DNA from: a bacterium
Lineage (GTDB): Bacteria > JAJVIF01
DNA length: 64,000 bases
Assembly: GCA_022072165.1 (NCBI GenBank)
Contig: JAJVIF010000001.1
Span: forward strand, 399,353-463,352
Direction of reading: 5' to 3'
Part shown: piece after piece, positions 12,410-17,997 of the stretch
Numbering within the stretch: the first letter of the stretch is position 1
How the letters are laid out: each line of letters opens with the position of its first letter
The notes under the pieces: generated by a model
Databases searched by the model: none
Told to the model about the DNA's origin: nothing
What the model saw: only the letters and a program-made list of their open reading frames with translations
Program-made: the position numbers and the translations under genes

Positions 12410-14140
12410 CTAGAGGACACCCCGGACACGGAGTTGAATCCACTCTTCATAGTCGGGCATCAGGCGACTCGCCCATTGCACAAGTCCGTACCAGAGTCCG
12501 CCGACCCACAGCACCCAAACCGGAATCGTGATGGCATAGAGCACCGGCGACTTCCACCAGAACCAGGGCCCGGCCAACAGGAGCAGCGCAGGGATCATGA
12601 GCAGCGCCAGGGCGACCAGGATCGCGGTATCCGCCAGCCCCACCAGCATCGCTCCCTGGAGTGTGATGACTGGGCGATCCAGCGGAGTGAAGTAGGGAAG
12701 CAACACCGAGGAGAGACTCCCCAGTCCCAACAGGAGGAGCGCGATACTGAGGAGCGTTCCCATACTCAGGAGCCAGTGCCCCAGAGTTGGATGCGGCAGG
12801 AGCATCAGACTCAGGGTCGAGATGAAGAGCATGTCTGGCAGCAGAATCGCGATGAAAAAGAGATTCTTCCCCAGGATGATCTGACGTCGGGGCACGGGCG
12901 TGATCAGCAACGCCCCGATCTCATCCCGCTCGAAGCCGAAAAAGTTCGCCACGAACAGATTCGCCTGCGTGACAAAAATGAAGAGGGTCAGGGCGAGATA
13001 GAGCGGAACGAACCAGCCAGTCAGGTCCTCCTTGCCTCCCAGGAGGTCCAGGTTGTACTTCCCCGCCAGCAGAATCGTCGCTGGTGCCAGGATGCCAGGG
13101 AGCGTCTTGTAAAAGAAGAAGTGTCGATTCCGTACCAGATTCGCGACATCTTTCCAGGCCGTGATGATCGCGGGATGCTCCATCCAGAGGGGCCATCCCC
13201 GGGCTGATCGCTGGGACCCCTGCTGCCCCGCCGCGATCCCCAGGCGCTCCAGATTGAGCCAGGCCTCCAGCCCAAAGAATCGTCCGCTCCAGGCAATCCA
13301 GAGGAGCAATGCGTTTGCGCAGGCCAGTCCCAGGACCCAGAGCGCGGCTTGTCCGGTGAAGCGGAGGATGAGAGGGATATTCCCCAGCGCCAGTTCATGT
13401 ATTGCCAGCGCCAGTGGACCGGTGGGGAGCGCGTTGTACTGGTCAATGAAGCGGTCGTCGAAGAGCGTCAGCCCATCGGGATACTCCACCACCCGCAGAT
13501 TCAGGGCGACCACGAATGCGAGAATCCCCGCAAACGTGAGCAACAAAATGCGGGTGAGATCGACCTTCGGCAGGATTGTCTGAAACAGCTGCACCACCAG
13601 CATGCTTCCCTGCAGGATCAACAGCAGAAACAGGGTGAGGATCAGGAGCAGCCACCCGATATCCCCGCTCGTCAGGACCCGCATATGTGTGAGGGGTACG
13701 GCCTCCGCGACAAAGCGCCCAATGCCGACACAGAAGGAAATCGGCAGGATCGTGGAGAGATCACCGCCGAACCCGACCATGGCGGCTCCCAGCAATCCCG
13801 GAAATCTAATGGGTAACAGCTGGAGCCGACGCAGGTCGAGTGCCTCGTTTGTCCGGAAGCCCAGGGCTGGCACCACGCTCCATCCCAGCCAGAGAAAGAG
13901 CAGCGTGACATGCATCAGCATCACGAGGCTGATGCTGAGACTCCGAAAGAAGATGTGTGGGTCCAGGGCGAAGGTCAACAGAAAGTAGAGCCCTTCCTGG
14001 ATCCCATACGCCAGCAACAGCACGGCTGGCAGAAACAGCAGGCTCTCCAGCCGCGCCTGGAATGTCGCGGTGTAGGTCCGCCAGGTGACCCGGAGGCGGA
14101 GCCCCAGGAGCGTCAACCCCTGCGCGAGGAGTCCGCTCAT
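12410..14140 (-). CDS. ABC-2 type transporter permease, large
   Basis: This 576-residue integral membrane protein has about a dozen hydrophobic segments, many with Trp/Leu clusters, and soluble loops carrying residues such as GFERDEIGALLITPVPRRQIILGKN. That loop phrase is typical of ABC-2 exporter permeases of the fused, double-length type. Its start overlaps the stop of the ATPase gene by four bases (ATGA), so both are translationally coupled into one exporter. The substrate cannot be told from sequence. Confidence 0.82.
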   Translation of the reverse strand: MSGLLAQGLTLLGLRLRVTWRTYTATFQARLESLLFLPAVLLLAYGIQEGLYFLLTFALDPHIFFRSLSISLVMLMHVTLLFLWLGWSVVPALGFRTNEALDLRRLQLLPIRFPGLLGAAMVGFGGDLSTILPISFCVGIGRFVAEAVPLTHMRVLTSGDIGWLLLILTLFLLLILQGSMLVVQLFQTILPKVDLTRILLLTFAGILAFVVALNLRVVEYPDGLTLFDDRFIDQYNALPTGPLALAIHELALGNIPLILRFTGQAALWVLGLACANALLLWIAWSGRFFGLEAWLNLERLGIAAGQQGSQRSARGWPLWMEHPAIITAWKDVANLVRNRHFFFYKTLPGILAPATILLAGKYNLDLLGGKEDLTGWFVPLYLALTLFIFVTQANLFVANFFGFERDEIGALLITPVPRRQIILGKNLFFIAILLPDMLFISTLSLMLLPHPTLGHWLLSMGTLLSIALLLLGLGSLSSVLLPYFTPLDRPVITLQGAMLVGLADTAILVALALLMIPALLLLAGPWFWWKSPVLYAITIPVWVLWVGGLWYGLVQWASRLMPDYEEWIQLRVRGVL

Positions 14141-14994
14141 GTGGGTGACTCCCCGATCCAGGAGAGCTGCTTCTCGGGCTCATCCCGACCCAGAAGTGCG
14201 ACAAATGCGTGCTCCAGATCGTCGTAGCCCCGGGCGGCCATGCTGGCACGGAAGCCGGCCATCGTGTCGGACACCAGGATGTGGCCGTGGTTGATGACCG
14301 CCACATGGTCGCAGAGCGCTTCGATCTGCTCCATGACATGGGTGGTCAGGATGATGGTGGTCCCGCGACGGGTCAGAGTTTTGAGAATCGTCTTGATCAG
14401 CCGGGCGGAGACGGCATCGATGCCGTTAAAGGGCTCATCGAGGACCAGGACCGGCGGGTCATGGACGAGAGCCGATGCCAGGGCAACCTTCTTCCGCATC
14501 CCCAGCGACAGGTCGCCTACAAAGCGCGACGGGTCCAGCTCCAGCAAGTCGATCAGTTCATCGGTCCGGCTCCGGACCAGCAGCGGCGCAATGCCGAACA
14601 TCCGACCCGTAAACTCGATCTGCTCCCTGGCGGTCAGTCGGTCATACAGCGCCAGTTCTTCCGGAATGACGCCAAGCGCGGCTTTGCATAGCAGGGGGGC
14701 CTCTTTGAGGCGATGGCCAGCCACGACGATCTCCCCCCGCGTAGGGCGCAGCAGCCCTATGATCATGTTGATGGTGGTCGACTTCCCGGCTCCATTGGGT
14801 CCCAGAAAGCCCAGAAACGCGCCTTTAGGGACAGCCAGATCGATATTGTTCACTGCGACAAACTCGCCAAACTGCCGCCGCAGTTGCGTCAGGATGATCG
14901 GATAAGCCGCCAGATCCTCGGGGGTCGGGGGACTAGCCAGCCGCAGGTTATGCGGCAACTGGCTCAGCGGCGCGGGATCGGGCACAGGAGGCAT
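14137..14994 (-). CDS. ABC transporter ATP-binding protein
   Basis: This is the nucleotide-binding subunit (285 residues) of the exporter whose permease overlaps it downstream. It has Walker A GPNGAGKST (65-73), signature LSLGM (162-166), Walker B VLVLDEP (182-188) and the switch histidine in ILTTHVMEQ. The ABC-2 DrrA/CcmA-like class fits the N-terminal ~40-residue extension before the core. The gene starts 17 bases after the stop of the PASTA-domain gene, so it may belong to the same fmt transcription unit. Confidence 0.92.
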   Translation of the reverse strand: MPPVPDPAPLSQLPHNLRLASPPTPEDLAAYPIILTQLRRQFGEFVAVNNIDLAVPKGAFLGFLGPNGAGKSTTINMIIGLLRPTRGEIVVAGHRLKEAPLLCKAALGVIPEELALYDRLTAREQIEFTGRMFGIAPLLVRSRTDELIDLLELDPSRFVGDLSLGMRKKVALASALVHDPPVLVLDEPFNGIDAVSARLIKTILKTLTRRGTTIILTTHVMEQIEALCDHVAVINHGHILVSDTMAGFRASMAARGYDDLEHAFVALLGRDEPEKQLSWIGESPT

Positions 14995-15011: not shown

Positions 15012-16970
15012 TCAGTACTGCTCCTCGCGGAGGAGTCGTCCATTGACATAAATCAGTACCCGGGTGGTCTGATAGGCATCCGCCAGCAACTCGACTTTGT
15101 CGCCGCCGGAGTGCTCCTTGCTGTAGACCTGACGCTCCCCCCGTCCATCCCGGATCACGATCCGGACTTGCCGCTGCCCGTCATAGGGCGGGAGGGCGAT
15201 GTTGATCCGCACCTGGAAGTCCCCCAGGGGTTCCTGCCCGCCTGGTGCGGTGACGGTCAGACTCACCGTGTCGCCTTCTTCCAGAATCGCGCCGGGTGTC
15301 GGTGTTTGTAGCGAGACAGTCGTGGTCGTGGCCTCGTAGCTGTACCGACGTACGATTTTTCGTACCTGGAGACCGGCATCCGACAGTTGAGTCAGTGCCG
15401 CGGAGAGCGGGCGATCGGTGACTTTCGGCATCCGGACTTCGCTCTTCAGTGCGCCCCGACTCACTACCAGATGCACGGGTTCCTCCTTGGCCAGGAGCTG
15501 ATTCGCTGGTGGGTCCTGATCGATGACCTGCCCCGCCGGGACCCCCCGGGCGTACTCATAGCTGATTCTCCCCGGCTTGAGCTCCAGCTTGGTCAGGCTC
15601 TCTACTGCAGTTTTCTCCTCGAGGCCAATCAGCGCAGGCAATTTGATCGTCCGGGCACCTCTGGAGAGCGTGACAAAAATCTCCCGGAACTCTTTGACCG
15701 TGGTATTGGGTTCTGGGGACTGCCGCAGGATTTTGTCCCGGGGTACCTCCTGGGAGTACTCTGCGCCGCTTATGGTCAGACTGAAGCCCTGCCGCTCCAC
15801 CGATTTCTTCGCACTGGCCATGGTCATCCCCACGACATCGGGCACCTGACGGGGCTGGACTGTGGGCCGGAAGAGAAAGGCCGCCAGGGCATAAAGGAGT
15901 CCACCGGTAAAGGCAGTCGCGATGAGCAACGCGAAGAACACCGAGCGCACAAAGAACGTGCTCTCCTGGCGTCGCTGATCCCTGGTTTGCGGAACACCGA
16001 CCGGGATCCCGATCCCCACTGCGGGGCTCTCAGACATTGCAGGTGACTCTGGGTCCGGATGCCCTGATCGCAGCAGATTTCCCCCCTGACCAGCGGAGAT
16101 CGCTGCAGCGCTTGCAATAGACCCGGTGATCGGCAGACTCGGTGTGCTGCCAAAGCCGGCCGCAGGTGAAGAGAGAGGGGTCGAGGGAAGGTCAGCGCCG
16201 GTGGGGACCGGTATGTCAGTCCGCCCCTCCAGCACGAGACGGCCAGACTTCATCGGCGACCAGGTTTCAGTGATCGCCGGTCCCCAAAGCTGGATCAACG
16301 CTGCGGGAATCGGAGGTGGCAAATCCCGGGTCCGTCGTTTCAACTCGGTGGTGACACGCAGGGGAATGTCGGCGGTCGTGATGTCGATATCCAGCAGCGT
16401 GTAAGCGATCAGACTGGCGAGCTGATGTCCATCTGCCATGGGTGTCCAGGCTTCCGGCAGCCGGGCATCGACGGGGGCATAGCCATGCTGGCAGCACCAC
16501 TGCAGCCATCCGCAGTCCGCCAGGAGCCAGCCCTGCTTTGAGTCATACACCACATTGGTCGGCAGGAGGCAGTTGTGACTGACACCAGCAGCATGGAGTT
16601 GCTCAAACCGCGCCAGGAGTTCCCGCATCCGCTGCAGCCGACTCTCCGGACTGGCAGTGGGGGCCATCACCTCGTCCCATGACTGCGCGTCCGGAAGCTG
16701 CTCGAATATGTAGAGCTGGTCATCCACCGGATGGATCGACCGGAGTTGCACGACGCCAGGGAGTCGCGCGAGATGGTCGGCGTACCACCGATGTAGCTCG
16801 TGCAAATCCCCCCGGACTCCGCCCGGCGCGAGGCGTATGACTTTCACCGACACCTGATCGTTGTGTCGCATGTCAGTCGCGCGGTACTGCTTGTACCAGG
16901 GAGTGCGTCCGACTGCGGAGTCGAGCTGATAGCGATCGAAGAGCGGCGCAATAGCGCTCGGTTCAGCCAT
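15012..16970 (-). CDS. PASTA-domain protein with degenerate serine/threonine kinase domain
   Basis: The layout (652 residues) is that of a PknB/PrkC receptor kinase: N-terminal kinase-like domain (~11-250), Ser/Pro-rich linker, one transmembrane helix (~340-365), three PASTA domains (~372-437, 441-506, 512-577) and an extra C-terminal beta domain (~580-652). PASTA domains bind peptidoglycan fragments outside the cell. Key kinase residues are missing: the HRDLKPxN loop reads HNCLLPTN (132-139), replacing the catalytic Asp and Lys, and the glycine loop is lost (VGRTPWYKQY). The ATP-lysine in VSVKVI (Lys43) and Asp152 of a DCG remain. The ATG at 16970 has AGGAGG upstream and overlaps the fmt stop by 8 bases. 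Confidence 0.87.
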   Translation of the reverse strand: MAEPSAIAPLFDRYQLDSAVGRTPWYKQYRATDMRHNDQVSVKVIRLAPGGVRGDLHELHRWYADHLARLPGVVQLRSIHPVDDQLYIFEQLPDAQSWDEVMAPTASPESRLQRMRELLARFEQLHAAGVSHNCLLPTNVVYDSKQGWLLADCGWLQWCCQHGYAPVDARLPEAWTPMADGHQLASLIAYTLLDIDITTADIPLRVTTELKRRTRDLPPPIPAALIQLWGPAITETWSPMKSGRLVLEGRTDIPVPTGADLPSTPLSSPAAGFGSTPSLPITGSIASAAAISAGQGGNLLRSGHPDPESPAMSESPAVGIGIPVGVPQTRDQRRQESTFFVRSVFFALLIATAFTGGLLYALAAFLFRPTVQPRQVPDVVGMTMASAKKSVERQGFSLTISGAEYSQEVPRDKILRQSPEPNTTVKEFREIFVTLSRGARTIKLPALIGLEEKTAVESLTKLELKPGRISYEYARGVPAGQVIDQDPPANQLLAKEEPVHLVVSRGALKSEVRMPKVTDRPLSAALTQLSDAGLQVRKIVRRYSYEATTTTVSLQTPTPGAILEEGDTVSLTVTAPGGQEPLGDFQVRINIALPPYDGQRQVRIVIRDGRGERQVYSKEHSGGDKVELLADAYQTTRVLIYVNGRLLREEQY

Positions 16971-17997
16971 GGACTCCTCCTGGCTGGATCGCAGCGAGCA
17001 ATGCCGCATCTGCTATGGGCGCTACCACGGGGCGGGGATCTCCGGCTCTTAGCTCAAAGCTTTCCGGCAGTTCGCCCCGCAGACCATTGAGCCAACTGCT
17101 GACTGGCATCTGGCCGCGTCCCGCTGGCTGGACGACGAGCAACTCCAACGCTCCCTCACCACACTGCACCGCGAGTCGACCTTTGCCAGGAGACCAGGTC
17201 ATCCCGGGTGTGAGGGTCGCGGCTGACCCTGATATCTCGCTTGTCGCCAGGACCCGGAGTGGTTCGCCCTTCCAGTACAGGAGGGCTCCCGGATCAGGCG
17301 CAAGTGCCCGGACGCGGTTTGCCAGTGCAGCAGCAGGCAACCTTAGTGGCAGATCCCGGTCAGCGGCGGTGAGCAGGCGAGTCAGGGTGGCTGCTTTGTG
17401 ATCCTGGGGAATGCCATAAGCCGTACCCGACCGAATCTCTTCAATGACGCGCATCAGGAGTCGGGAGCCGAGTTCCCCGAGGCGTTGACGCAACGACAGG
17501 CCCGTGTCATCTGGCGCAATGGAAGCGGTTTCCACCGCCAGAATGTCCCCGGTGTCGATCCCCTTTTCGGTGTAGTGAATCGCCACACCCGTGACAACAT
17601 CGCCCTGCCAAAGTGCCGCCTGGACCGGCGCCGGGCCACGGTACTGCGGCAGCACTGAGGGATGGATGTTCAGACAGGCCTGTGTGGGGATACTCCGAAC
17701 TGATGCTGGCAAGTAGTGGGCATACGCGGCGATAACGAGGAACTCCGGAGCGAGGGCGAGCAGTGCCTCCCTGCTTTCTGTCGTGGCAATCTTTTCAGGC
17801 GTGAGAACCGGTATCCCCTGGCTCTCGGCCAGAACCCGAATCGGCAGGGGCTCAACCTTCCGGCCGCGTCCACGCGGACGATCCGGCTGAGTAACCAGCG
17901 CTGTAAGCCACCCGGCCTCCGCAAGCGCCAATACCGCCGGCTCCCCGAAGGAGTCGCTGGAGCAGAGGATGACCCGTGGTGCTGATGCGGTCCTCAT
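16963..17997 (-). CDS. fmt: Methionyl-tRNA formyltransferase
   Basis: Fmt formylates the initiator Met-tRNA using 10-formyl-THF. The protein (344 residues) shows the N-terminal Rossmann domain (VILCSSDSFGEPAVLALAEAG), the substrate loop PDRPRGRGRK, and the catalytic segment LNIHPSVLPQYRGPAPVQ followed by GVAIHYTEKGIDTGDIL. The C-terminal tRNA-binding domain has normal length. In Firmicutes fmt is followed by rsmB, a PP2C phosphatase and a PASTA kinase; here the PASTA gene follows directly and overlaps the fmt stop, with rsmB and the phosphatase absent. No strong ribosome site is visible before the ATG. Confidence 0.93.
   Translation of the reverse strand: MRTASAPRVILCSSDSFGEPAVLALAEAGWLTALVTQPDRPRGRGRKVEPLPIRVLAESQGIPVLTPEKIATTESREALLALAPEFLVIAAYAHYLPASVRSIPTQACLNIHPSVLPQYRGPAPVQAALWQGDVVTGVAIHYTEKGIDTGDILAVETASIAPDDTGLSLRQRLGELGSRLLMRVIEEIRSGTAYGIPQDHKAATLTRLLTAADRDLPLRLPAAALANRVRALAPDPGALLYWKGEPLRVLATSEISGSAATLTPGMTWSPGKGRLAVQCGEGALELLVVQPAGRGQMPVSSWLNGLRGELPESFELRAGDPRPVVAPIADAALLAAIQPGGVHG

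Follow-up and report, generated by a model that had tools for sequence, protein, structure and literature searches.

PASTA kinases, such as S. aureus Stk1/PknB and M. tuberculosis PknB, have to our knowledge been investigated almost exclusively as enzymes. Our literature search returned no described family of PASTA pseudokinases and nothing direct on PASTA proteins without a kinase, and in a 2025 review of bacterial pseudokinases PASTA appears only within one reference title (PMC12599244). The gene described here lies in a stretch of DNA of 64,000 nucleotides (the window) from a bacterium whose phylum has seldom been sampled, and encodes the sole PASTA protein of its genome (estimated completeness 99.1%). 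The protein has the kinase, membrane helix and PASTA layout of PrkC, PknB and Stk1 (Table 1), and its residues and predicted fold suggest that it is, with somewhat better than even probability, a conserved pseudokinase receptor of that type, signalling by binding and not by catalysis.

The open frame on the minus strand extends from 17009 to 15012 (665 codons), and residue numbers follow its translation, P0001, which begins at 17009. Within this frame ATG 16970 is, from the sequence, the likely start codon. As it is preceded by an AGGAGG motif and the gene start overlaps the end of fmt, whose stop is at 16963, the coordinates 15012-16970 proposed in an earlier sequence-only reading, which left the strand unstated, are right. 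The AGGAGG itself lies within the end of fmt, making coupled translation likely. With fmt as its neighbour, the protein belongs to the PASTA proteins of the fmt-rsmB-rpe locus, i.e. those encoded beside fmt, rsmB or rpe. Elsewhere in the window, a 576-aa membrane protein that matches no Pfam family at E 0.1 is encoded (12410-14140, minus strand) beside an ABC ATPase (14137-14994), and a small bacterial SRP RNA (RF00169; 6997-7095, plus strand) is found upstream of dnaX, a ybaB-like gene and recR, which is the usual arrangement.

Table 1. Features of the PASTA gene and its surroundings (positions in the window; residues in P0001 numbering)
Feature	Position	Strand	Residues	Remarks and evidence
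Putative PASTA pseudokinase receptor, CDS	15012..16970	-	14-665	652 aa; ATG 16970, stop at 15012
AGGAGG ribosome-binding site	16976..16981	-		5' of ATG 16970, within fmt end; sequence
fmt, methionyl-tRNA formyltransferase	16963..17997	-		Directly upstream of PASTA gene; PF00551 and PF02911
Predicted pseudokinase domain	16224..16940	-	about 24-262	hhalign against intact kinases, AlphaFold2, Foldseek
Lys56, beta3 ATP-anchoring lysine	16842..16844	-	56	Retained
Glu103, gatekeeper position	16701..16703	-	103	Met in aligned intact PASTA kinases
HNCLLPTN for HRDxKPxN	16554..16577	-	145-152	No catalytic Asp or Lys; His and metal-binding Asn retained
DCG for DFG	16509..16517	-	165-167	Metal-binding Asp kept
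Membrane helix	15876..15950	-	about 354-378	Hydropathy maximum 2.09 over 19 residues; single strongly hydrophobic segment
PASTA domain 1	15663..15848	-		PF03793, 61.6 bits
PASTA domain 2	15459..15644	-		PF03793, 46.8 bits
PASTA domain 3	15252..15437	-		PF03793, 41.4 bits
C-terminal Ig-like domain	15015..15221	-		Common to canonical and kinase-less PASTA proteins; 24/72 aligned residues identical to the G079 intact PASTA kinase

The three PASTA domains were recognized jointly at E 2.2e-39. The domain behind them aligned over its full length both with intact PASTA kinases and with kinase-less PASTA proteins, and the phmmer match of the window protein to S. aureus Stk1 (3py9) extended to residue 662. 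Constructs of B. subtilis PrkC with an Ig-like C-terminal domain have also been reported (PMC5786024). The C-terminal beta domain, previously taken to be an extra, is real but standard for PASTA proteins of the PrkC/Stk1 type. Judging from the family, the three PASTA domains and the Ig-like domain would bind peptidoglycan, its precursors or its fragments outside the cell.

The Pfam Pkinase model matched the N-terminal domain only at E 0.0058, under its curated cut-off. An hhalign comparison with a profile built from 20 kinases with intact catalytic residues, and from no pseudokinase, gave E 1.4e-9 (probability 96%) for the window domain and E 1.3e-7 for an orthologue from a second genome of the phylum (G001). 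As controls, two other, unrelated proteins of the window were compared with a related, larger profile of 28 rows (A4) and scored E 0.31 and 0.14. AlphaFold2 modelled the kinase domain alone, from 28 rows, with a pLDDT of 78.8, a pTM of 0.77 and strands and helices in the expected order; the full protein, modelled from two rows, reached a pLDDT of 38. S. aureus Stk1 was the best PDB match of the predicted domain in Foldseek, with M. tuberculosis PknB and PknA in the top five. Since the alignment supplied to AlphaFold2 held intact kinases, the independent hhalign result weighs more for family membership. Profile and model both point to a kinase fold, in keeping with the PknB/PrkC-like layout proposed earlier (kinase fold, one helix, three PASTA domains), and with this predicted cytoplasmic domain the window protein would not be a kinase-less PASTA protein.

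The degraded motifs noticed in the sequence-only reading were confirmed, as hhalign with intact kinases only placed HNCLLPTN on HRDIKPQN and DCG on DFG, and glycines 2 and 3 of the Gly-loop are lost. Gone as well are the Arg and Asp of HRD (HNC), the catalytic-loop Lys (replaced by Leu), the Phe of DFG (Cys), the GT/S of the P+1 region and the alphaC Glu (Tyr), the last having escaped that reading. The segment from DFG to APE comprises 22 residues, compared with 25-35 in intact kinases, and the domain keeps Lys56, His145, Asn152, Asp165, the Pro and Glu of APE and the alphaF Asp193. The earlier statement that the catalytic Asp and Lys are gone thus holds for the Asp and the catalytic-loop Lys but not for the beta3 (VAIK) Lys56, and the independent hhalign found no alignment with intact catalytic residues elsewhere in the domain. 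By its residues, the protein lacks the intact HRD Asp, catalytic-loop Lys, alphaC Glu and Gly-loop expected of a PASTA Ser/Thr kinase, and because these and the P+1 region are missing, the domain would be incapable of phosphate transfer. If a bacterial pseudokinase is a kinase fold that has lost at least one of the VAIK Lys, the HRD Asp and the DFG Asp, the window protein, with its predicted fold and lost HRD Asp, would be one.

The retained Lys56, Asn152 and Asp165 may permit nucleotide or metal binding, and the gatekeeper Glu103 perhaps replaces the lost alphaC Glu as the partner of Lys56. The same three residues could also serve an active, unorthodox kinase or another nucleotide transferase, as in SelO or SidJ. 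In favour of this, the proteins of the window and of G001 still have the ATP-anchoring Lys and the two metal ligands, and other activities have been described for the kinase fold (PMC12599244). Some kinases without conserved motifs are active, YegI being an example cited in PMC9674922, which counts against the pseudokinase reading. We nevertheless consider such an enzyme improbable, since the catalytic Asp, the Lys two residues on, the alphaC Glu, the Gly-loop and the P+1 loop have all been lost, and in pseudokinases of a second phylum the metal-binding Asn is replaced by Ser as well.

Four genomes of the window's phylum were examined (G000, that of the window, and G001 to G003). G001, from another family of the same class (JAGGVT010000207.1, MAG AUK107), encodes an orthologue of 663 aa whose gene overlaps the fmt end. 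Its motifs read HGFLNFRN and DYP, the same class of lesion, and Lys, His, Asn and Asp are again present. In G002 (JAPKYR010000083.1, Lac Pavin sediment) fmt is followed by a PASTA and C-terminal coding stretch (L016:7600-8520, minus strand) and then by rpe; the PASTA gene is hence adjacent to fmt in three genomes and to rpe in G002. In the G002 stretch the frame is disrupted within PASTA domain 1 and the space is too short for a membrane or kinase part, which may reflect decay or an assembly fault. No PASTA protein of this kind was found in G003 (82% complete), and a search for related loci with the window protein alone as query gave no matches. All four genomes also encode a protein of ~1180-1370 aa with three tandem kinase domains (G000:C2:665515-667920, comprising L008-L010; G001:C133; G002:C295; G003:C361). 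In the G000 protein, the first domain has the catalytic-loop motif HLDLKPNN and the other domains miss the strict pattern.

Full-length PASTA pseudokinases were also encountered in a second phylum, in four of the seven genomes examined (G259, G122, G389 and G385), with rpe behind the gene where read (G259, G122). Their alignment with the two proteins from the window and G001 has E 1.1e-10, and the G001 orthologue and these four proteins, with their common lesions and novelties, are new here. A gatekeeper Glu is present in 6/6 pseudokinases of both phyla and in 0/22 other alignment rows, and the third Gly of the Gly-loop is Tyr in all six but in none of the 21 other rows covering the position. 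The alphaC Glu, present in 21/21 intact kinases, is absent from all six, and their HRD motif reads H, then N or G, then a residue other than Asp. These residues suggest one origin for the pseudokinases of the two phyla, or strong parallel pressure; being shared and derived, they favour the single origin, which the trees leave unproved. The kinase-domain tree has long branches (window 3.5 and G001 4.6 changes per column), and a clade of pseudokinases and PASTA kinases could be neither established nor dismissed (p-AU 0.286). In the PASTA tree G000, G001 and G002 form a group (98/86), with little resolution between phyla. G259 encodes a further kinase-like membrane protein (L108:1453-3369, plus strand) with HGAVVPRK for HRDxKPxN.

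Selection could be measured in the second phylum, the window gene having no relative close enough for dN/dS. Between the sister species G122 and G389 the ratio was 0.065 for the pseudokinase domain (8.5 nonsynonymous vs 34.5 synonymous differences), 0.016 for the PASTA part and 0.25 for the linker, so that in this phylum purifying selection maintains the dead domain.

A survey of 385 genomes across bacteria with the PASTA and C-terminal part of the window protein placed these pseudokinases in a wider series. Most matching proteins come from frames of about 230-440 codons in which only about 35-85 residues precede the first PASTA domain, and are hence kinase-less. Judged by motifs, an rpe gene follows in at least 15 of the 20 loci read, and rsmB or fmt precedes in several. 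Intact PASTA kinases occupy the matching locus in G198 and G079, in G198 with a PP2C-motif gene upstream and rpe two genes downstream. Another type of PASTA pseudokinase, with a clear kinase fold (E 1.2e-40), precedes an rpe-motif gene in G007 (L142:3587-5443, plus strand); it has HGDVGPHN, keeping the HRD Asp, an Arg at beta3 and LAG for DFG. The simplest reading of this unrooted comparison is that the change ran from kinase to pseudokinase to none.

Other N-terminal domains occur among the PASTA proteins. In the G049 genus (L099, L111, L112) a conserved domain of about 220 aa, unlike a recognisable kinase, is under purifying selection (dN/dS 0.09-0.12), and a protein of about 458 aa in G169 (L145:3824-5248, minus strand) has a domain of about 150 aa that resembles a kinase N-lobe by eye, unsupported by hhalign. 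A proposal that these N-termini are kinase remnants was withdrawn at hhalign E values of 0.02 to 0.2, like those of the controls; G049 is itself a row of alignment A3, and its matches to A3 are therefore not independent.

As the kinase domain is missing from most matching proteins, phosphorylation would be dispensable for the role of the outer part. This distribution could also mean that function resides in the outer PASTA part, the cytoplasmic pseudokinase being a passive, drifting remnant heading for loss. The very long branches of the kinase-domain tree would fit, as would the gene at the same place in G002, apparently without kinase and membrane parts and with its frame disrupted, which we count against a conserved pseudokinase receptor. 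A mere remnant seems unlikely to us: selection in the second phylum is strongly purifying, both phyla have derived residues in common, and the fold skeleton (Lys56, His145, Asn152, Asp165, the APE Glu and alphaF Asp193) has survived to a divergence at which G000 and G001 are about 21% identical. With the kinase part absent in places at the locus, the constant function is that of the outer part, to which the pseudokinase probably adds partner binding. A bolder proposal, tentative but possible, is that of a separate PASTA pseudokinase family in at least two phyla, in which the gatekeeper Glu and the Tyr of the Gly-loop remodel the pocket for the nucleotide about the retained beta3 Lys, and ligand binding by the external PASTA part is linked to an allosteric response in the cytoplasm, driven by a nucleotide or a partner; such a family would be a preserved intermediate between active PASTA kinases and kinase-less PASTA proteins.

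The absence of a PP2C phosphatase from the operon, pointed out in the sequence-only reading, extends to the 99.1% complete genome as searched with PF13672 and PF00481 (SpoIIE-type PF07228 was outside the search). A general loss of phospho-signalling, which that reading had connected with it, does not follow. Eight to nine further Pkinase matches were obtained in the genome, and in at least four of them (L004, L005, L006, L007) the Lys, Glu, HxD and DFG are all intact. The organism thus probably still carries out Ser/Thr phosphorylation, and only the PP2C partner is missing. These intact kinases, together with the Ser/Thr/Pro-rich linker (residues 263-345) and the precedent of mycobacterial MviN (PMC12599244), leave some room for a phosphorylated scaffold, in which another kinase modifies the cytoplasmic part or the linker and phosphopeptide-binding proteins dock there; in a genome without PP2C by the two models above, we find this rather unlikely. 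For the favoured pseudokinase receptor, the domain would instead act as a docking or allosteric module that relays the status of the wall to cytoplasmic partners by binding, with the machinery of wall synthesis or another cellular kinase as candidates. Sequence, predicted fold, purifying selection and the recurrence in two phyla support a sensor or scaffold without kinase activity, as first suggested from the letters.

These observations suggest that the wall-binding part can work without phosphorylation. If true, a conserved, catalytically dead receptor and its many kinase-less counterparts separate wall sensing from phosphorylation in a testable manner, and raise the questions of what the PASTA and Ig-like part does by itself and what a dead kinase domain contributes. 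For specialists, the single gene would be of less interest than the recurrence and the graded series seen at a single locus.

Among described systems, mycobacterial MviN/MurJ (ActPs3) is likewise a bacterial pseudokinase anchored in the membrane and connected with the cell wall, and its activation loop is deleted (PMC12599244). However, its pseudokinase follows a MurJ transporter, is not part of a PASTA receptor, and has VALT for VAIK and no ATP binding; VAIK and DFG are both degraded in the ActPs3 family, whereas the window protein keeps Lys56 and Asp165. The DYD pseudokinases are also membrane-associated and have lost the alphaC Glu, for which a substitute salt bridge has been proposed (PMC12599244), but they carry a beta3 Arg and the DYD motif where the window protein has Lys56, DCG and an acidic gatekeeper residue, which places it outside that group. 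The kinase-less PASTA proteins of the rsmB-rpe locus share the membrane helix, the three PASTA domains, the C-terminal domain and the locus, and differ in having no cytoplasmic kinase-fold domain, with mostly about 35-85 residues before the first PASTA. From PrkC/PknB/Stk1 (NCBIfam NF033483) the window protein is set apart by the loss of the catalytic residues, alphaC Glu and Gly-loop, a lost or shortened activation loop and the missing PP2C partner, and by a score of 147.8 bits, entirely from the membrane and PASTA part, against a curated cut-off of 450. With the same family it nevertheless shares the predicted kinase fold, the membrane helix, the PASTA domains, the Ig-like C-terminus, the place behind fmt and the closest fold in the PDB.
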